A DNA stretch of 40,533 bases, taken from positions 1 through 40,533 of the forward strand of contig DVIP01000012.1 in NCBI GenBank assembly GCA_018711225.1, read 5' to 3'. The notes below the pieces were generated by a model. The model made no database searches. It saw nothing but the letters and a program-made list of their open reading frames with translations, and was not told the DNA's origin. The position numbers and the translations under genes are program-made. This DNA comes from Candidatus Cryptobacteroides intestinipullorum. GTDB lineage: Bacteria > Bacteroidota > Bacteroidia > Bacteroidales > UBA932. How positions within the stretch are numbered: the first letter of the stretch is position 1; every line of letters begins with the position of its first letter. Shown here piece by piece: positions 3,416 through 14,339 of this stretch.

Positions 3416-3425
3416 CAGCCAGAAA

Positions 3426-3473
3426 TGTGGAGAGATTTGGCTGCTTGCAACCACACAAAAAAATGCTAAAAAG
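3426..3473 (+). ncRNA. SAM-II-like riboswitch aptamer upstream of metK
   Basis: TGTGG(3426-3430)/CCACA(3451-3455) P1 stem; loop contains GATTT...TTGCAA; 3' tail GCTAAAAAG (3465-3473). These match the conserved SAM-II elements GAUUU, UUGCAA, GCUAAAAAG as recalled from the metX aptamer. Pseudoknot TTGCA (3445-3449) with TGC(T)AA (3464-3469) is possible. Confidence 0.75.
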
Positions 3474-3518
3474 AAATCGCACGCATGTGCCTTGCATTCA
3501 ATTTTTAGATATGTTTTG

Positions 3519-3547
3519 TGCTCCTCATTTCTGAAGGGGCATTTTTT
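3519..3547 (+). terminator. Intrinsic terminator in the metK leader (probable riboswitch expression platform)
   Basis: TGCTCCT (3519-3525) / AGGGGCA (3535-3541), one G-T pair, followed by TTTTTT (3542-3547), upstream of the metK start codon. Confidence 0.65.
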
Positions 3548-3595
3548 ATGTCCCGGATCGAAGGAGTTGTTTACAGACCATTATTTTTATTGATT

Positions 3596-4930
3596 ATGGC
3601 ATATCTTTTCACATCGGAATCAGTTTCCGAAGGCCATCCGGACAAGGTGGCCGACCAGATTTCAGACGCGATACTGGACGAATTCCTCCGCCAGGACCCG
3701 GAAGCGAAAGTAGCATGCGAGACTTTCTGCAGCACCGGACTCGTAGTAGTAGGAGGTGAAGTAAGGTCGGAAGACGCATACGTGGACATACAGAATGTAG
3801 CCAGAAGGGTCATCAACAGAATAGGCTACAACAAGGCTGACTACATGTTCGACGGCAACTCATGCGGAGTGGTTTCCGCTCTTCACGAGCAGTCCCAGGA
3901 CATAAACAGGGGTGTGGTGACCGAAAACGAGGACGAGCAGGGTGCCGGAGACCAGGGCATGATGTTCGGCTATGCATGCAATGACACTGCCGAATACATG
4001 CCGCTTCCGCTTGCACTTGCGCATAAGGCCCTGATGATTCTCTCCGATATACGGAAGAAGACTCCGGAAAAAATGCCTTACCTGAGGCCGGATGCCAAAT
4101 CCCAGTTCACCATAGAATATGACGATGCCACCCACAAGCCTGTCAGGGTGCACACGATAGTCATTTCCACCCAGCACGACGAATTTGTGCCTGAGGAATT
4201 GGGAAAAATGACCTACACCGAGGCCTGCGCCCAATACGGACAGGACAGGGTGGACGCAGCCATGCAGGCCAAAATCAGGAAAGACATACAGGAAATCCTG
4301 ATTCCGGAACTTGTTGCCGGGCTCCCTTCAGAGACGGCGGCACTGTTCCATGACAACTATATCCTGCACGTGAATCCTACCGGAAAATTCGTGATAGGAG
4401 GCCCTCACGGAGATACCGGACTGACAGGAAGGAAAATCATAGTGGACACTTACGGAGGAAAGGGAGCGCACGGCGGCGGAGCATTTTCGGGGAAAGACCC
4501 GTCCAAAGTAGACCGGTCGGCAGCCTATGCGGCCAGATATATAGCCAAGAACATGGTGGCAGCGGGTCTGGCTGACGAAATGCTGGTCCAGCTGGCTTAC
4601 GCCATAGGAGTGTCTCAGCCGGTAAGCATATATGTGAACACTTTCGGCACTGCTGCCAAAGATGCTTCAGGAAAGCAGATAAGCGATTCCTGCATAGCAG
4701 AGCGCATCCACAAGCTGTTCGACCTGAGACCTGCAGCAATTATCAGGAAATTCCAGCTTAAAAAACCTATCTACGAACCTACTGCCGCCTACGGGCATGT
4801 GGGAAGAAAGCCGTACAAGGACGTAGTGGAAATCCGCCGGCACGGAAAGGCAAGTCAGGAAGTAGTGCAGTTCTTCGGCTGGGAGCTGCTCGACTCTGTG
4901 GACATGATAAAGAAAGAGTTCGGTCTCTGA
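3596..4930 (+). CDS. metK: S-adenosylmethionine synthase
   Basis: [30 protein letters not shown]..., [43 protein letters not shown]. The ORF track starts at 3518, but the conserved N-terminus starts at 3596. Confidence 0.97.
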
Positions 4931-6026: not shown

Positions 6027-7154
6027 ATGATAGACAACATTTTACTTGCACCATACTATCTGACCCTGAAATTCAGGCACTTCCTGTACGACCATGGAAT
6101 AAAAAAATCATCCAGGGCCGATGTCCCTACCGTCTGCATAGGCAACATAACCGTAGGCGGCACAGGGAAGACACCGCATACCGAACTCACAGTGAGGACA
6201 TTGCTCTCCATGGACAAATTCAGGGGGAAAAACATCGCGGTCCTGTCCAGAGGCTACAGACGGGAAAGCAAAGGCTTCCAGCAAGTGACTACAGGCAGCA
6301 GCGCCGCATTCTCCGGGGACGAACCGCTCCAGATAAAGAACAGATTCCCGGGAATAACGGTGGCTGTGGACGCCAAAAGGACGGAAGGCTGCGAATTTCT
6401 GAGCCATCCCGAACGGCTGAAAGCATCCAGAAAGAACAGAAAATGCGCAGACAAGAACTTTCCAGCCGCAGACATCATCATACTGGACGACGCATTCCAG
6501 CACAGGGCTCTGAAACCGGACCTTTCTATACTTCTCATTGACTACAACAGACCTGTTTTCCAGGACAGGCTCCTGCCCCTCGGACATTTGAGAGACATAC
6601 GGGAAAGGACATCTGCCGCCGACATCATAATCATCACCAAATGCCCGTCATTCATAGACAGTGAAGAAAAAGAAAAATGGATAAGCGCCCTCGGAATCGG
6701 GAATTTCGATACGGACAGCCTCAGCGGCACGAACAGACAAGGCCGCAGACAGACAATCCTTTTCTCCACCATAAAATACTGCGATGCCGTCCCGATATTC
6801 CATGACGCAGACCAGAGATATCTTTATGCCCGCCGGGCAATAATGTTTTCCGGCATAGCCAATGACACCCCGTTGAGATCATATCTGGCAGGGAAATACA
6901 AAATAGCGAAACATATAAAATTCGGAGACCACCACAAATTCACCGGATCGGACATCAGGACCCTTGAATCAGCCTCCGGAGACGAACCTACAGCCATACT
7001 TGTCACCACCGAAAAAGACAGCCAGCGACTGAAGGATATGGGAAAAATACCCGGAACACTCTCAGCCAGAATGTTCCAGGTACCGATAGAAGCCGTCTTC
7101 ACTTCAGAAAAGGAAGACCTTATTTTCCGGAATCATCTGAAGAATCTTCTGTAA
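6027..7154 (+). CDS. lpxK: Tetraacyldisaccharide 4'-kinase
   Basis: MIDNILLAPYYLTLKFRHFLYDHG..., VPTVCIGNITVGGTGKTPHTE (Walker A), DIIILDDAFQHR. The upstream 29 codons of the ORF lie in repeat sequence, so start is placed at 6027. Confidence 0.93.
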   Translation: MIDNILLAPYYLTLKFRHFLYDHGIKKSSRADVPTVCIGNITVGGTGKTPHTELTVRTLLSMDKFRGKNIAVLSRGYRRESKGFQQVTTGSSAAFSGDEPLQIKNRFPGITVAVDAKRTEGCEFLSHPERLKASRKNRKCADKNFPAADIIILDDAFQHRALKPDLSILLIDYNRPVFQDRLLPLGHLRDIRERTSAADIIIITKCPSFIDSEEKEKWISALGIGNFDTDSLSGTNRQGRRQTILFSTIKYCDAVPIFHDADQRYLYARRAIMFSGIANDTPLRSYLAGKYKIAKHIKFGDHHKFTGSDIRTLESASGDEPTAILVTTEKDSQRLKDMGKIPGTLSARMFQVPIEAVFTSEKEDLIFRNHLKNLL

Positions 7155-8241
7155 GGATTTCGTTCTGGACCTGCACGGAAGCATCGTGTATCGCATTGAA
7201 CACCGTGGAAACGAATTTGGCCGGAAGGCCGAGTTCGGCACCCTTGGCTATGGCCTTTTCCAGAAGTTCATCCCACCTTCCCGTCTGCAGAATGGCAATA
7301 TTGTTGTGCTTCTTGTACTCACCTATCTGACGGCTTACGGCCATTCTGGAACCGAGCATATACAGAAGGCTGTCATCTATGACATCTATCTTGGCTCTGA
7401 GCTGGTGGATATTCTCCTTATATTCAGGACTGTCCGAATCGCTTTCCCTTACCACTATCCTGTCCATGAGATCCGAAAGCTCCTTGGGTGTAAGCTGCTG
7501 CTTGGCATCGCTCAGGGCGCAGGTCGGATCGCAGTGGCTTTCTATCATCAGACCATCCAGACCGAGATCCATGGCAGTCTGAGAAATTTCCTGAAGATAC
7601 TGCTTGGCCCCGCCCATGTGACTCGGATCACAGAAGAACGGCATATCGGGATAGCGCGTCCTCAACTCTATGGCTATCTGCCATTCCGGCCTGTTCCTGT
7701 ACGGAATCTTCTCCGATGTCGAAAATCCCCTGTGTATGACACCGAGTTTTCTGACACCTGCCTGGTTAAGCCTTTCCAGAGCGCCTATCCACAGATCCAG
7801 ATCAGGATTCACGGGATTCTTGACAAGCACCGGAATATCCGTATCCTTCAACGCATCAGCTATTTCCTGCACCAGGAAAGGGTTGGCCGTCGTCCTGGCC
7901 CCAATCCAGACCATATCCACACCGAATTTCATGCAATCGAAAATATGCTTTTCGCTTGCCACCTCCGTGCAGATTTTCATCCCCAGCTCGTTCTTTACTC
8001 TCTGAAGCCATTTGAGTCCCTGGGTCCCTACTCCTTCGAATGTATTCGGATGAGTTCTCGGCTTCCATATTCCGGCACGGAACACGCATACACCCAGCGA
8101 CTTAAGTCCTCTGGCAGTTTCCATTATCTGGATTTCGGATTCTGCACTGCACGGGCCAGCTATCAGGAGCGGCCTCCTTTCATTGAACAGATTGAACAGG
8201 TTCCATTCCTTCAGCGGAAGGATGTCTAGTCTCTTTTCCAT
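7120..8241 (-). CDS. Bifunctional 3-deoxy-7-phosphoheptulonate synthase / chorismate mutase type II
   Basis: N-terminal RRPLLIAGPCSAESE, FRAGIWKPRTHPNTFEGVG, FCDPSHMGG; C-terminal chorismate mutase type II domain LRAKIDVIDDSLLYMLGSRMAVSRQIGEYKK. Confidence 0.95.
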   Translation of the reverse strand: MEKRLDILPLKEWNLFNLFNERRPLLIAGPCSAESEIQIMETARGLKSLGVCVFRAGIWKPRTHPNTFEGVGTQGLKWLQRVKNELGMKICTEVASEKHIFDCMKFGVDMVWIGARTTANPFLVQEIADALKDTDIPVLVKNPVNPDLDLWIGALERLNQAGVRKLGVIHRGFSTSEKIPYRNRPEWQIAIELRTRYPDMPFFCDPSHMGGAKQYLQEISQTAMDLGLDGLMIESHCDPTCALSDAKQQLTPKELSDLMDRIVVRESDSDSPEYKENIHQLRAKIDVIDDSLLYMLGSRMAVSRQIGEYKKHNNIAILQTGRWDELLEKAIAKGAELGLPAKFVSTVFNAIHDASVQVQNEILTEDSSDDSGK

Positions 8242-8490: not shown

Positions 8491-9357
8491 CTATCTTATA
8501 ATCCTCTTTATCCTGTTGGCATCCTCTATCAAAGTCCTGATACCGTCCTCATCGAACCCGTCTATCGCCGCCCGGAAAGCGCTCATCTTCTCCATGTATG
8601 TATCTATGACCTTGAGAAGATTCTCCCTATTCTGGGAAAATATCGGCACCCACATGTCCGCATTGCTTTTGGCCAGCCTGACAGTCGAAGAAAAGCCTCC
8701 CGATGCGAGGTCGAATATGTGCTTCTCGTTCTTTTCCTTGTCCAGAACAGTCAGAGCCAGGGCAAATGATGTGATGTGTGAAATATGGGACACGTATGCG
8801 GTATGTACGTCATGGCCGGCGGAATTCATGTATATCATCCTCATATTCAGGCAGCCATACAGTTTTTCAGCCAGATGCACTGATGACGGGGCCGATTCCT
8901 CCTGGTCGCAGATTATGCAGGCCCTTCCGTCGAAAAGACCGGACATCGCAGCCCAGGGACCGGAATACTCCGTTCCGGCCATAGGATGTGTAGCCACATA
9001 ATGCGTCCTCATCGGATGATAGTGCACGGTTTTCGCCAGCTGCTCCTTCGTAGAACAGACATCCAGGACAGTCTTGCGGCACACTCCGACAGTGTTTTCC
9101 TCCGCCCTGAACATGTCCAGAATCTCCGGAAGCATCCTGACAGCCGAACCGACAGGCACAGCCAGCACTATCAGCTCGCACTCGCGCACACATTCCTCTA
9201 TCGACACCACCCTGTCCACAAGTCCGATTTTCTGTGCCGCGGCAGCATTCACGCTGTCTGCCTCCACACCTGTCAGAGAGTCTGCAAACCCCCTTCTTTT
9301 CAGGTCAATAGCCATTGAACCCCCTATAAGGCCCAGTCCGATAATCCCGATTTTCAT
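8491..9357 (-). CDS. tyrA: Prephenate dehydrogenase
   Basis: MKIGIIGLGLIGGSMAIDLKRRGF (Rossmann GxGxxG), YVATHPMAGTEYSGPWAA, HDVHTAYVSHISHITSFAL. Confidence 0.92.
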   Translation of the reverse strand: MKIGIIGLGLIGGSMAIDLKRRGFADSLTGVEADSVNAAAAQKIGLVDRVVSIEECVRECELIVLAVPVGSAVRMLPEILDMFRAEENTVGVCRKTVLDVCSTKEQLAKTVHYHPMRTHYVATHPMAGTEYSGPWAAMSGLFDGRACIICDQEESAPSSVHLAEKLYGCLNMRMIYMNSAGHDVHTAYVSHISHITSFALALTVLDKEKNEKHIFDLASGGFSSTVRLAKSNADMWVPIFSQNRENLLKVIDTYMEKMSAFRAAIDGFDEDGIRTLIEDANRIKRIIR

Positions 9358-9435
9358 TTTCTCGTCTTTTCCGTAAACTTCCATTCCTTCCGTTTCCCGA
9401 CGGCAGTCATCATTGACGCAGACACCGGCACGGAA

Positions 9436-10641
9436 TCATTTCAACAATGCGGCAATCTTCTCCGCCGATTTTTCCAGGACTTCAGGTTTCGCGCACAATG
9501 AAATCCTGATATAATCCCGTCCGTTCTTCCCGAAAATAAAGCCAGGTGTAATGAAAACTCCCGCTCCGTACAATATCCTGTCGGATACCTGCTCTCCGAA
9601 AGAGGCTTCGGATTCCGGAGACAACAGCCTGTTGCCAGGTGCAATCCTGCCCCACAGGAACATGCCGCTGCTCGCGTGGTCATATCCCGCGCCGACAATA
9701 TCGAATATCCGTCCGGCAAGTTCCCTGCGTCTTCCGTACTCTTCGTTCAATGCCCTGAACCATTCCGGACCGCTGGCCAACGCCGCTACAGCCGCTTCCT
9801 GCAGAGGCTTGAACATACCGGAATCCATCTGGCTCTTCACTTTCAATATCTGAGAGATGATTTCCTGATCCGCGGCCACCATTCCTATCCTCCATCCGGA
9901 CATGTTGTGTGCCTTGCTCAAGGAGTTGAGTTCCAGACAGCAATCCTTTGCCCCCGGCACCGACAAGATGGAAATAGGATTATCGTTCAGGATAAAGCTG
10001 TAAGGATTGTCGTTGCATATCAGGATGCCGTGCCTGCGGCCGAAATCCACGAGCCTCGTATAAAGCTCCATCGTGGCAGGAGCCCCTGTAGGCATGTTGG
10101 GATAATTGGTCCACATTATCTTCACTCCTTCAAGGTCCGTCTTCTCCAATGCATCGAAATCCGGCTGCCAGCCGTTGTCCGCCTTCAGGTCATACGGAAC
10201 AAGCCGGGCCTCGGCCAGAGCCGTAGCAGAAGAATATGTAGGATATCCGGGGTCCGGAACCAGGACCTTGTCACCCTTGTCCAGGAACGCCAGGGATATC
10301 AGCAGGATGCCTTCCTTGGACCCCGCGAGCGGCTGGATTTCCTTAGACGGGTCGAGGGTGACCCCGTAATACCGTTCATACCACCCGGCAAAAGCCTTGC
10401 GTAGCTGAGGTATGCCGGTATAGCTCTGATATGCATGGTTTCCAGGCATGGATGCAGAACTCTTCAAGGCTTCTATCGCTTCTGCCGGAGGCATTCCGTC
10501 CGGAGCGCCTATTCCGAGATTGATCACCCTGTCTTTTCCTGCGGCTTCCCTTTCCGCGTTCATCCCGTCTATTTCCTTAAGTTTGCGGGAGAAGTAATAT
10601 TCCTGGACTGATTCTGTCCTGTGCGCCGGTCTGATTATCAT
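9436..10641 (-). CDS. Class I/II PLP-dependent aminotransferase (likely aromatic amino acid aminotransferase by context)
   Basis: INLGIGAPDGMPPAEAIEAL, VLVPDPGYPTYSS, CNDNPYSFILND, ELNSLSKAHNMSGWRIGMVA (PLP lysine), GRDYIRISLCA; sits between pheA and tyrA. Confidence 0.9.
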   Translation of the reverse strand: MIIRPAHRTESVQEYYFSRKLKEIDGMNAEREAAGKDRVINLGIGAPDGMPPAEAIEALKSSASMPGNHAYQSYTGIPQLRKAFAGWYERYYGVTLDPSKEIQPLAGSKEGILLISLAFLDKGDKVLVPDPGYPTYSSATALAEARLVPYDLKADNGWQPDFDALEKTDLEGVKIMWTNYPNMPTGAPATMELYTRLVDFGRRHGILICNDNPYSFILNDNPISILSVPGAKDCCLELNSLSKAHNMSGWRIGMVAADQEIISQILKVKSQMDSGMFKPLQEAAVAALASGPEWFRALNEEYGRRRELAGRIFDIVGAGYDHASSGMFLWGRIAPGNRLLSPESEASFGEQVSDRILYGAGVFITPGFIFGKNGRDYIRISLCAKPEVLEKSAEKIAALLK

Positions 10642-10713: not shown

Positions 10714-11562
10714 CTATATGGCAGCCTCGTATTCGCCGAGAATATTCAGGTCGTCCATCAGAGGCCTCACCGCAGATATTGCCTGACTGTATCTGAGATA
10801 ATTGTCAAACTTGATATCCGCATAGAAAAAGTACTGCCATGATTTGCCGGGTATCGGAAGCGACTGTATTCTGGTCAGATTCATATCATAGAAAGACAAT
10901 ATGGTAAGTATCTGCGCCAGGGAGCCGGCCTTGTGCGGAAGCGTGAAACACAGCGAAACCTTGTTGACCTTTTCCTTAGGTATCGTTATCCTGTCGTCCA
11001 GAATGAGGAATCTGGTGAAATTCTGCTTGTATGTCTCGATACTTTCCTTCAGGATTTCAAGGCCGTAAAGGTCTGCTGCCAGGACCGATGCCACGGCACC
11101 CACGCCCTTGAGTTTCTGGCCGGCGACATCGGCCGCGCTTTTGGCGGTATCTTCCGATTCGACAAGCCTTATCCACGGGTATGCCTGGAAGAACGGTCGG
11201 GTCTGGTTTATCGCCATGTAGTGTGTCCTTACCTCCTTGATATCTTCTATCTTCTGCCCCGGCATGGCCATAAGGTTCTGCTGGATGCGCAAAAAAACCT
11301 CGCCTTTGATTTTCACGTTATATTTCCGCAGAAGTTCGAAGTTCGGCAGGAGTCCTCCGGAAACAGTATTCTCTATGGCCATCACCGCCGCATCCGCGTG
11401 TCCCGTATCCATGGACCTGTAAAGGTCATCGAAAGTAGGGCACTCCACTATATCCGGCGTCCTGCCGTCGTATTTCTCATAGAATATCCGTGCCGCCTGC
11501 TCGTGGAAACATCCGTGGTATCCCTGTATCGCCACACGTTTCCTGTTTTCTGTCTCAGTCAT
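10714..11562 (-). CDS. pheA: Prephenate dehydratase (with C-terminal ACT domain)
   Basis: VAIQGYHGCFHEQAARIFY, NTVSGGLLPNFELL, NQTRPFFQ, TRFLILDD, SLCFTLPHKAGSLAQILTILSFYDMNLTRIQSLPIPGKSWQYFFYADI. Confidence 0.93.
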   Translation of the reverse strand: MTETENRKRVAIQGYHGCFHEQAARIFYEKYDGRTPDIVECPTFDDLYRSMDTGHADAAVMAIENTVSGGLLPNFELLRKYNVKIKGEVFLRIQQNLMAMPGQKIEDIKEVRTHYMAINQTRPFFQAYPWIRLVESEDTAKSAADVAGQKLKGVGAVASVLAADLYGLEILKESIETYKQNFTRFLILDDRITIPKEKVNKVSLCFTLPHKAGSLAQILTILSFYDMNLTRIQSLPIPGKSWQYFFYADIKFDNYLRYSQAISAVRPLMDDLNILGEYEAAI

Positions 11563-11661: not shown

Positions 11662-11690
11662 AAAAAGAGCTGCCCGAATCCGGACAGCTC
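11662..11690 (-). terminator. Attenuator terminator (3:4 hairpin) upstream of pheA
   Basis: Minus strand GAGCTGTCCG-GATT-CGGGCAGCTC (10 pairs, one U-G) followed by TTTTT, located about 100 nt upstream of the pheA start codon. Confidence 0.85.
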
Positions 11691-11772
11691 CAACATAAAT
11701 CCCTTTATTATATTGTACACAACATACCGCCCGGCTATTTACCTTTTATGGAAATAGAAATAAAAATAACCG
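11680..11772 (-). promoter_or_regulatory. Attenuator alternative structures: protector 1:2 and antiterminator 2:3
   Basis: Minus strand segment 1 CGGTTATTT (11772-11764) pairs with AAATAGCCG (11740-11732). CCGGGCGG (11734-11727) pairs with CTGTCCGG (11687-11680), which includes most of the 5' terminator arm. Confidence 0.75.
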
Positions 11773-11795
11773 TATGCGCTAAATCGTGTATTCAT
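11739..11795 (-). CDS. Phe/Tyr-rich attenuator leader peptide, MNTRFSAYGYFYFYFHKR
   Basis: ATG AAT ACA CGA TTT AGC GCA TAC GGT TAT TTT TAT TTC TAT TTC CAT AAA AGG TAA; 8 of 18 residues are Phe/Tyr, directly upstream of an attenuator for a Phe/Tyr operon. Not in the ORF track because of its length. Confidence 0.85.
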   Translation of the reverse strand: MNTRFSAYGYFYFYFHKR

Positions 11796-11812
11796 ATCTC
11801 AAACACCGAGGA

Positions 11813-11841
11813 CAAATATACTAAAAAATTTTTCATGACAA
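11813..11841 (-). promoter_or_regulatory. Putative promoter of the pheA operon
   Basis: Minus strand TATATTTG (11820-11813) matches -7 TAnnTTTG; TTG (11841-11839) as -33 with 18-nt spacing; about 17 nt upstream of the leader ATG. Confidence 0.65.
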
Positions 11842-11887: not shown

Positions 11888-13729
11888 TCATTCCGCCGTC
11901 ACCACCTTTACGCCGTCTTCCGGATATTCCGCCATATAGAACGGGAAATAGCCTTTATACATGTCTGAACCGTTCTCTTCATAATAATAGACCACGTCCC
12001 TTACCGGAGTGAAATGCTGGACATTGCTTTCCCCTTTTTCAAACATGACAGATCCTATATGATTTATAAGAAGATAATGGTCCAATCGGTGTGCATCTGA
12101 AACATTGTCTTCGTTAAGATAGTATTTCAGCGCATAATCGAGATATACACGATCCTGCAGCACCTGATCTTCAAAAGTGATGGTCGGGCCTTCGGAACCG
12201 TCGGGCACATCGAAAGATTCATCCGGAAGCGGATAAAAACCATTGAGAGTCGCATAATAAATGGATTGCGGGCAGTCCCATATAACGAGATCCGGATCTA
12301 TCGTAAAACTCGGTTTGTAATTCAATTTCGTGAAATAGAATATCTTGTCCTTCACATCTGACGGACCGTCCACCAGTCTCGCATCCACCCGGAATTTCCC
12401 GTAGTCGTTCAATGTTACGTTCGCTTCCCAATCGTTTTTCTTGGAAACGGTAATATTCTGGTAATCGCCGTTTTCATAATGGATATCCCCGATAGAGAAT
12501 TCCACATGTGCATCCGGATATGCAGGATGTTTGTACTGCCATTTGATTGTATACGTATTGCCGACATTGACTACTGACGGATAATAAAGTTCTTCTTCAA
12601 TTTCCTTTATTTCATAACCCAAGAGACCCTCTCCGCTCGTGCCTCGCTCTTTCCCGTCCTTTCCATACAGGATGACCGTAATATCACACTTCCCCGTATC
12701 TGTAAATGTAATGTCGAACGTATCTTCTGACGATGCCTTCTCTATATCCGTTCCCGTACCGTCCGTGTAGTCTACTGTAAGGCCGTACGATATCCCCTCC
12801 ATCGGCTTGACACTTTCGAATGGCTTGATCTTTATCCGGTAGTCTGTTCCAGTATACAAAGTCCGTCCTGTCACCTTGGTCTCCTTCCCGTCCCCGACAG
12901 AATATATTTCATATTCCAGGTCATCTATAGGACGAAGCGGGTACAATTTCGATAAATCTTCTTTATCATATCGCGTCAAACCACTCCAATATCCACCTAC
13001 ATTTGCTGTTGTAATTTCATCCGACGGTCGCATAATAGTATTAACTTTATCATCGTTAGTTTCTGTTACATGAGACGTAAATTCATCAGAATCTTTCAGC
13101 CCTATAAGATGTCCTATGGCATGCATTATGGCATATCTTCGTTGGGAAGGATCAAGATACTCCCATATATAGTATCCTGTATTTATTGTAATACGCCCGT
13201 TGAGATTTCCTGTCAAAGGTGTTACAGTCACAAGAGCTGAGCCGAAAGCAAATGTCGGAGTAGAAGTCACTTCAATAGCAGCATTTGTCCCGCCAGGATA
13301 GGAAGCTGTCGTACTGAAAAAGATATTGCAATCATCTATGGAGTTCCATTCCGATATGGCTTCTTCCAGAAGCATATCACTGTTACTCATGGCATCCATT
13401 TGGTATTTGTCAATATGGATCTGTTGCTGTTCTCTGGCAAGTCTTATACTCTCTGCATTGATTCTTGTCTTAGGTACGGATCTACAGTTCATCAATTCGT
13501 TCTTATAAAATATAAATTCATTCGAAACAAGATAGTATTCGTCATATACCCGGACAGCCGTAGTGTCATATCCCCAATCGGCCAAAAGCTGCATATCCTC
13601 AGTATATGCATCCTCTGTCTTTGACAATCCGGATTCATCCAAAGTCTTTTCATCAGCAAGTTCTTCCACGCTGCAGGCCATAAACATGCATGCCATTGCC
13701 GCAAGAATCAATAAAAGGTTTCGTTTCAT
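11888..13729 (-). CDS. Lipoprotein with M57/M10-like zincin domain lacking the catalytic Glu
   Basis: Lipoprotein signal MKRNLLLILAAMACMFMACS; zincin-like IMHAIGHLIGLKDSDE where HEIGHxIGxxHTD would be expected; large C-terminal beta-rich region. Confidence 0.75.
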   Translation of the reverse strand: MKRNLLLILAAMACMFMACSVEELADEKTLDESGLSKTEDAYTEDMQLLADWGYDTTAVRVYDEYYLVSNEFIFYKNELMNCRSVPKTRINAESIRLAREQQQIHIDKYQMDAMSNSDMLLEEAISEWNSIDDCNIFFSTTASYPGGTNAAIEVTSTPTFAFGSALVTVTPLTGNLNGRITINTGYYIWEYLDPSQRRYAIMHAIGHLIGLKDSDEFTSHVTETNDDKVNTIMRPSDEITTANVGGYWSGLTRYDKEDLSKLYPLRPIDDLEYEIYSVGDGKETKVTGRTLYTGTDYRIKIKPFESVKPMEGISYGLTVDYTDGTGTDIEKASSEDTFDITFTDTGKCDITVILYGKDGKERGTSGEGLLGYEIKEIEEELYYPSVVNVGNTYTIKWQYKHPAYPDAHVEFSIGDIHYENGDYQNITVSKKNDWEANVTLNDYGKFRVDARLVDGPSDVKDKIFYFTKLNYKPSFTIDPDLVIWDCPQSIYYATLNGFYPLPDESFDVPDGSEGPTITFEDQVLQDRVYLDYALKYYLNEDNVSDAHRLDHYLLINHIGSVMFEKGESNVQHFTPVRDVVYYYEENGSDMYKGYFPFYMAEYPEDGVKVVTAE

Positions 13730-13751
13730 TGTACTATGATTTTTAAATGGG

Positions 13752-14339
13752 TTATTGTATCTTTTCAAGATTTCCGTAATAGTAATATTTGTGTGTCGCG
13801 CCAGGATCATTGACATGCTTTTTTACTACATTTAAACGGTATTTTGAAGAATAAAATGTCCGGTTATTTTCTGCCTGATATAATTTCAGACGAAATTCGT
13901 AATTTCCCTCTTCAGGAATGATAACATCAAGCTGCCTATGATAATCATGTATGTTTCCTGGATAATAATCCGGATCCCATTCGTGTTCAAGAGAAAATAG
14001 CCCGTCAAAGTATTTTTCGTCTTTATCATTTGTAATTACAGGAGAATTGAACTGATAATCTATGTCTGCTCCTGCTTGAAATTCAAGATTTTCCCCTTTA
14101 AACATCTCAAATGACGCATCGACACGTTTTTTAAATATGGTATCATTAGGGATATTATATGCCATGTGCATAAAATACACATCACTGGCCCCGGTACCTT
14201 CCCCTCCCCATAAATCAACGGCAGAATACAATTCCACGACTGGTGTTTCTTCAGACGGCGTCTTTTTTTCGGACTTTTCGCTGCAGGCCATGACTGAACA
14301 TGCCATGGCGACAAAAATCAATAAAAGGTCTCGTTTCAT
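13752..14339 (-). CDS. Small lipoprotein of a local paralogous family
   Basis: MKRDLLLIFVAMACSVMACS lipobox; C-terminal EFRLKLYQAENNRTFYSSKYRLNVVKK...YYYYGNLEKIQ shared with neighbours. Confidence 0.75.
   Translation of the reverse strand: MKRDLLLIFVAMACSVMACSEKSEKKTPSEETPVVELYSAVDLWGGEGTGASDVYFMHMAYNIPNDTIFKKRVDASFEMFKGENLEFQAGADIDYQFNSPVITNDKDEKYFDGLFSLEHEWDPDYYPGNIHDYHRQLDVIIPEEGNYEFRLKLYQAENNRTFYSSKYRLNVVKKHVNDPGATHKYYYYGNLEKIQ

Follow-up and report, generated by a model that had tools for sequence, protein, structure and literature searches.

A putative ribosome-mediated attenuator with a Phe- and Tyr-rich leader peptide upstream of pheA in Bacteroidales

In Escherichia coli and Salmonella, the pheL-pheA region encodes a Phe-rich leader peptide before the prephenate dehydratase gene, and expression follows the 1:2/2:3/3:4 logic of alternative RNA segments. 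One leader can also read several end products of its operon, as in the leaders of ilvGMEDA (Ile, Val and Leu) and thr (Thr and Ile). The Bacteroidales are a dominant group of gut bacteria and, to our knowledge, the control of their amino-acid genes is poorly described. Here we analyze a window of 40,533 nucleotides, a contig of the 2.44-Mb genome (87% complete) of Candidatus Cryptobacteroides intestinipullorum, in which a first-pass annotation had read an attenuator on the minus strand. The reading of this locus as a ribosome-mediated transcription attenuator, which would respond to how much charged Phe-tRNA and Tyr-tRNA is available, is strongly supported, and we give it a probability of about 93%. 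The mechanism is classical (of the trp, phe and his type), and the lineage is new.

The locus resembles pheL-pheA (Rfam RF01859, Phe_leader) in its Phe-rich leader, its segment logic and its type of target gene. It differs in that Phe and Tyr codons alternate, in that the operon comprises the Phe and Tyr branches together with a DAHP synthase (DAHPS), and in that initiation would take place without a Shine-Dalgarno (SD) sequence. Against the RF01859 model, the window gives 20.0 bits over the full model length (gathering threshold 55, E = 0.46), so the leader is not a member of the proteobacterial Phe_leader sequence family. With ilvGMEDA and thr it shares a multivalent leader for several end-product amino acids, but the amino acids and the phylum are others, and here codon content shifts by lineage with operon content.

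Regarding the same phylum, strong clues for leader-peptide attenuation before amino-acid biosynthesis operons have been reported in Flavobacterium psychrophilum (PMC9723704), although the accessible text of that report names no pheA case and gives no detail of mechanism. In the same order, the accessible text on Bacteroides thetaiotaomicron (PMC7366714) describes sORFs in long 5′ UTRs, with the hypothetical protein BT_4401 as an example, but names no amino-acid operon. The uORFC-13-1 motif upstream of aroF (PMC8632094) is a candidate attenuator of the uORF type that precedes a DAHPS gene and contains Phe codon(s), but its 24 representatives come from Acholeplasma and environmental sequences and its structure is unlike the one found here. 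Our search of the open-access literature turned up neither a Bacteroidota pheA attenuator nor a dual, operon-tuned sensor or its spread across the order.

The leader and its operon

The elements of the locus are the following, with positions given in the window:

11841-11813, minus strand: Bacteroidota-type promoter, with TTG at 11841-11839, 18 nt, and the -7 box TATATTTG at 11820-11813
11795-11739, minus strand: leader ORF MNTRFSAYGYFYFYFHKR and stop, 18 codons, 4 Phe and 4 Tyr
11768-11751, minus strand: regulatory codon run TAT TTT TAT TTC TAT TTC (Y F Y F Y F), read from the sequence; an F/Y-rich run is kept across Bacteroidia
11772-11764, minus strand: segment 1, CGGTTATTT, core of the 1:2 stem, which reaches outward to about 11789
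11740-11727, minus strand: segment 2, AAATAGCCGGGCGG, in which AAATAGCCG pairs with segment 1 and CCGGGCGG with segment 3
11690-11680, minus strand: segment 3, GAGCTGTCCGG, shared by the terminator (5′ arm) and the antiterminator (3′ arm), containing CTGTCCGG
11676-11662, minus strand: segment 4, CGGGCAGCTC, and the TTTTT tract, completing an intrinsic terminator (fold, independent scan, covariation)
10714-11562, minus strand: pheA, prephenate dehydratase, first controlled gene (PF00800, 2.3e-48)
9436-10641, minus strand: class I/II aminotransferase (PF00155, 1.7e-57)
8491-9384, minus strand: tyrA, prephenate dehydrogenase (NF006307, 1.1e-98, above cut-off)
7120-8241, minus strand: DAHP synthase/chorismate mutase (CM) fusion (PF00793 and PF01817)

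The promoter that the first-pass annotation had proposed is present base for base, and its -7 box TATATTTG is an exact fit to TAnnTTTG, the -7 consensus given in the accessible text of PMC7366714. It lies 17 nt from the ATG of the leader. The leader ORF also reads as described there, with six of its eight Phe and Tyr codons in a single run. Profile matches confirm the downstream genes as the pheA-aminotransferase-tyrA-DAHPS/CM series that had been named. The window PheA shares 86-91% identity with proteins from uncultured Bacteroidales and from Candidatus Cryptobacteroides merdigallinarum. No DNA similarity to the window was found among phage records, and a TrpE-family search of the same genome (a MAG 87% complete) gave no match.

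As for the pairings, CCGGGCGG (11734-11727) and CTGTCCGG (11687-11680) form the proposed 2:3 helix of 8 bp with two G-U. The terminator GAGCTGTCCG-GATT-CGGGCAGCTC-TTTTT (11690-11662) has the expected 10-bp stem (11690-11667) followed by TTTTT, and the same terminator was recovered by an independent scan. The antiterminator uses the 5′ arm of the terminator, so the two are mutually exclusive, as had been claimed; order-wide covariation (see below) bears this out. The proposed 1:2 core, CGGTTATTT (11772-11764) with AAATAGCCG (11740-11732), also holds at 9 bp with one G-U, but the real structure is longer than was described and spans most of the leader ORF. It includes a further conserved hairpin, CTATTTCC/GGTRATAG, which straddles the ORF end and which the annotation had not listed. 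Folding of the 156-nt leader gives a z-score of -4.66, and none of 200 shuffles folds equally well.

From these parts, we infer a course that runs from the start of transcription, through translation of the leader, to a response to tRNA charging. RNA polymerase would start just 5′ of the leader ORF, with a ribosome trailing on the 18 codons. With both tRNAs charged, this ribosome would reach the stop codon and mask segment 2, leaving segments 3 and 4 to pair and transcription to terminate at the T-run (11662). If Phe-tRNA or Tyr-tRNA were scarce, the ribosome would instead stall in the Y-F-Y-F-Y-F run and mask segment 1; segment 2 would then pair with segment 3, the terminator would not form and the pheA-aminotransferase-tyrA-DAHPS/CM operon would be transcribed.

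Spread of the leader and match to operon content

We collected 80 Cryptobacteroides pheA loci from public genomes, 65 of whose sequences form the genus alignment. About 70 of the 80 have a Phe/Tyr-rich leader with a terminator behind it. The leaders fall into four types: M-xx-RFSAYGYFYFYF, MGTYRFSSFGFYFFYF, M-DFRFNAFGFYYFYY and M-RN-FRFSFYYFYYSQKRV. Inside the leader ORF, alignment gaps are exclusively 3, 6 or 9 nt long, versus mostly 1-2 nt after the stop codon (65 sequences), a difference that points to selection on the reading frame.

A PheA-anchored search of the same order and of other orders of the class added 166 loci. Counting as a leader any ORF that starts with ATG and has 6 or more Phe/Tyr within 10 codons, and using dinucleotide shuffles as control, we find leaders in the upstream 350 nt of 81% of 165 Bacteroidia loci, compared to 1.3% of shuffles. 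Under a stricter definition (a short ATG ORF with at least 7 F/Y in 10 codons), the rate among shuffled pheA upstream regions is 0.1%. Of the 11 other residue pairs that were compared, F+L alone is clearly raised, and it shares the Phe codons. Leaders occur in 125 of 147 loci of the order (48 of 51 families) and in 10 of 18 loci of other orders, while 30 of the 165 loci have no recognizable leader, including 11 of the 23 from the window's own GTDB family. Behind 131 of the 135 class-wide leaders lies a terminator. Hence, the check that the first-pass annotation proposed, a short ORF with conserved Phe/Tyr runs in relatives, came out positive both in the genus and across the order.

We also built a covariance model and searched 295 genomes of the order, nearly half of which gave weak matches (30-43 bits, often on both strands) that were mostly chance terminators. 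Since only a few matches lay next to pheA, spread was assessed with the pheA-anchored searches instead.

Does the leader read Tyr as well as Phe? The residue F is the commoner one in most leaders, some loci carry Phe-only leaders, and Phe and Tyr codons interchange freely in the genus alignment. All this would suit a leader that senses only Phe, with the Tyr codons as fillers that keep the pairing RNA AT-rich (TTT and TAT are one base apart) and carry no regulatory weight. Against this stands the composition of the leaders when loci are sorted by operon content. The search for tyrA covered about 4.5-7.5 kb and used a model with the window TyrA as its seed. In the 106 operons with tyrA, the mean Tyr fraction of the leader core is 0.44 and all but one (105/106) have at least 2 Tyr codons, whereas 8 of the 9 stand-alone pheA loci have 0-1 (families f38, f28, f18, f98 and one f1 genus; examples are MITINNSFFFFFFRSDPEKGL and MTRFFTHFFFFFTQQ, and the exception is L257). 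The association between Tyr content and presence of tyrA is significant at the family level (Mann-Whitney p = 0.0034), with relatedness only roughly controlled and a small number of independent events (five or six). It is also visible within family f18, where the Tyr fraction is 0.0 in the solo locus and 0.50 and 0.56 in those with tyrA. That Tyr content follows operon content argues, at the level of sequence comparison, that both amino acids are read, and it supports the dual Phe and Tyr sensor of the first-pass annotation. Sensing of Phe alone is thus unlikely in our estimation. Conservation across the order and the match between codon content and operon content are what is new in this system.

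Pairing evidence and the stall model

In the genus alignment, 95.5% of the cells of the 3:4 helix are paired, with 5 pairs changed on both sides (48 such cells), and the 1:2 helices hold 37 double-change cells; for each, none of 500 shuffles reached as high a value. In the 2:3 helix, 92.3% of cells are paired, compared to 24-60% when the arms are slid, with no covariation beyond column make-up in the genus. Segment 3 (CTGTCCGG) is nearly invariant there, and the 2:3 helix is conserved without covarying because this segment must fit both partners. Covariation of 2:3 appears at the scale of the order, with pairs such as GAGCGGGA/TCCCGCTC, GAGCAGGA/TCCTGCTC, AAGGTGAGGC/GCCTCACCTT and CGAGGCTT/AAGCCTCG. 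Complementarity between segments 2 and 3 is significant (p ≤ 0.05) in 105 of 131 loci, versus 7 of 131 for a control region upstream of the leader, and in 95 of 131 a locus matches its own segment 3 better than at least 90% of those from other loci. With a fixed limit of -25 nt, the test gives 88 of 131. Such a limit truncates segment 2 in leaders with long tails, and it was therefore set at the end of the F/Y run to obtain the value of 105. So, of the covarying stems anticipated by the first-pass annotation, 1:2 and 3:4 covary within the genus, and 2:3 does so only order-wide.

These pairings bear on a simpler account of the hairpin, as a signal belonging to the upstream gene (11888-13816), for constitutive termination or for processing, with the short ORF being incidental. 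This gene is on the same strand and ends at 11888, and four Cryptobacteroides loci (L024, L037, L041 and L046) lack the leader ORF and retain the terminator with CTGTCCGG. However, a promoter box separates the upstream gene from the leader, frame constraint and F/Y richness mark the ORF throughout the class, and a plain terminator has no need of a segment 2 matched to segment 3. We consider this account very improbable. At L024 the terminator sits directly behind the promoter box. To judge from its sequence, L024 has apparently undergone a recent loss of the switch.

In order to model the attenuator, we folded only the RNA downstream of the ribosome, up to segment 3, with an assumed footprint of 12 nt beyond the A site. 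An earlier version that allowed pairs across the ribosome was replaced by this downstream-only folding. In the window, segment 3 is paired upstream with P = 1.00 when the A site is at Phe/Tyr codons 8-15, and with P = 0.12 when the ribosome is at the stop codon. All 65 homologues behave in the same direction (0.71-1.00 when stalled, lower at the stop). Taken with the fold and the pair counts, the model indicates that 1:2 competes with 2:3, the stalled ribosome covering segment 1 and the ribosome at the stop codon covering segment 2. With no ribosome, upstream pairing of segment 3 in the window falls to 0.03, predicting termination by default. This default state differs between homologues, in some of which segment 3 is paired upstream, so basal termination is not necessarily uniform. 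With segment 4 transcribed, the terminator is the more stable structure at equilibrium in every ribosome state. Hence, the modeled switch would have to be kinetic, as in classical attenuators.

Another form of RNA control, be it a T-box, an amino-acid riboswitch or TRAP-like protein binding, could in principle leave the ORF as a by-product. Two features lean this way, since both the hairpin CTATTTCC/GGTRATAG and a CGATTT (Arg-Phe) motif are conserved more strongly than a codon run alone needs. The latter, near the leader start (alignment columns 19-24), is invariant or nearly so in the 65 sequences, even though Arg has six codons. Its conservation exceeds what the peptide needs, and pairing with a downstream TCG/ATCG accounts for only part of it. 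But the conserved structure falls mostly within the ORF and spares its reading frame, and no T-box or riboswitch from Rfam scores at gathering level in the leader, nor credibly below it (scan down to E = 10), which makes such control highly unlikely. In the whole window, the scan gave a single match above gathering, a SAM-II riboswitch (3421-3479, plus strand; 63.4 bits, gathering 44) ahead of an ORF at 3518-4930.

Leader ribosomes might instead reinitiate at pheA or couple to it, raising translation with no control of termination. Leader-gene reinitiation has been proposed in general (in the accessible text of PMC4833913), and a second mini-ORF, MKRVYEEIEI, ends just before pheA, but this account is hardly probable given a leader stop 177 nt away behind a strong terminator and a mini-ORF bordering an interspersed repeat that has further copies in the genome.

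This repeat (..CGATGAAATGAAAG-AGAG-ATT..GAGGG-GACACGAAAA) lies between the terminator and pheA at 11664-11600 (minus strand), and the genome holds three more copies (C26:32956-33022, C16:1993-2049 and C153:19308-19351). The leader-pheA gap of 177 nt compares with about 75-130 nt in most relatives; the repeat helps explain the difference. The mini-ORF begins at the repeat edge.

Leader initiation and His leaders

Of 69 Cryptobacteroides loci, 66 have a TAnnTTTG box no more than 60 nt before the leader ATG, compared to 6% in shuffles. In 31 of the 66, the box ends exactly 8 nt before the ATG (17 nt in the window). With 8 nt between box and ATG, the predicted 5′ UTR is of a few nt and initiation would be nearly leaderless. 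By the accessible text of PMC7366714, only about 3.7% of 5′ UTRs in B. thetaiotaomicron are shorter than 10 nt. An SD-like 4-mer is found in 6 of 70 leaders, so the scarcity of SD sites pointed out in the first-pass annotation stands, but it is ordinary for the phylum.

Taking all the above together, we see slightly better than even odds for a broader account as a whole. According to it, the pheA-operon attenuator would be ancestral to Bacteroidales, and probably to much of Bacteroidia, and would sense the charging of Phe-tRNA and of Tyr-tRNA in an either/or fashion, its leader gaining Tyr codons when tyrA enters the operon and losing them when tyrA departs. Through much of Cryptobacteroides, the -7 box stands only 8-11 nt from the ATG, which predicts a nearly leaderless leader mRNA, and SD-less initiation at the extreme 5′ end would drive the switch. 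If true, a compact attenuator spread across the order would explain the control of Phe and Tyr synthesis. Leaders of mixed composition, Phe-only leaders and losses also form a natural series in which the rule that codon content mirrors operon content is directly testable.

Leaders rich in His were found as well. A short His-rich ORF lies upstream of hisG in 24 of 30 loci of the order, a raw count with no shuffle baseline. Together, the Phe/Tyr and His leaders make leader-peptide attenuation a likely usual device in the order, and suggest it as a standard one in a phylum with ribosomes that largely dispense with Shine-Dalgarno sequences. In the genome of the window itself, the region upstream of hisG (G000:C118, locus L263) carries what reads as a His-type attenuator, with the His leader MTNLLSYILRHHHILPV and a terminator, and a segment there, ACGGCAGG, is complementary to the terminator arm CTTGCCGT.
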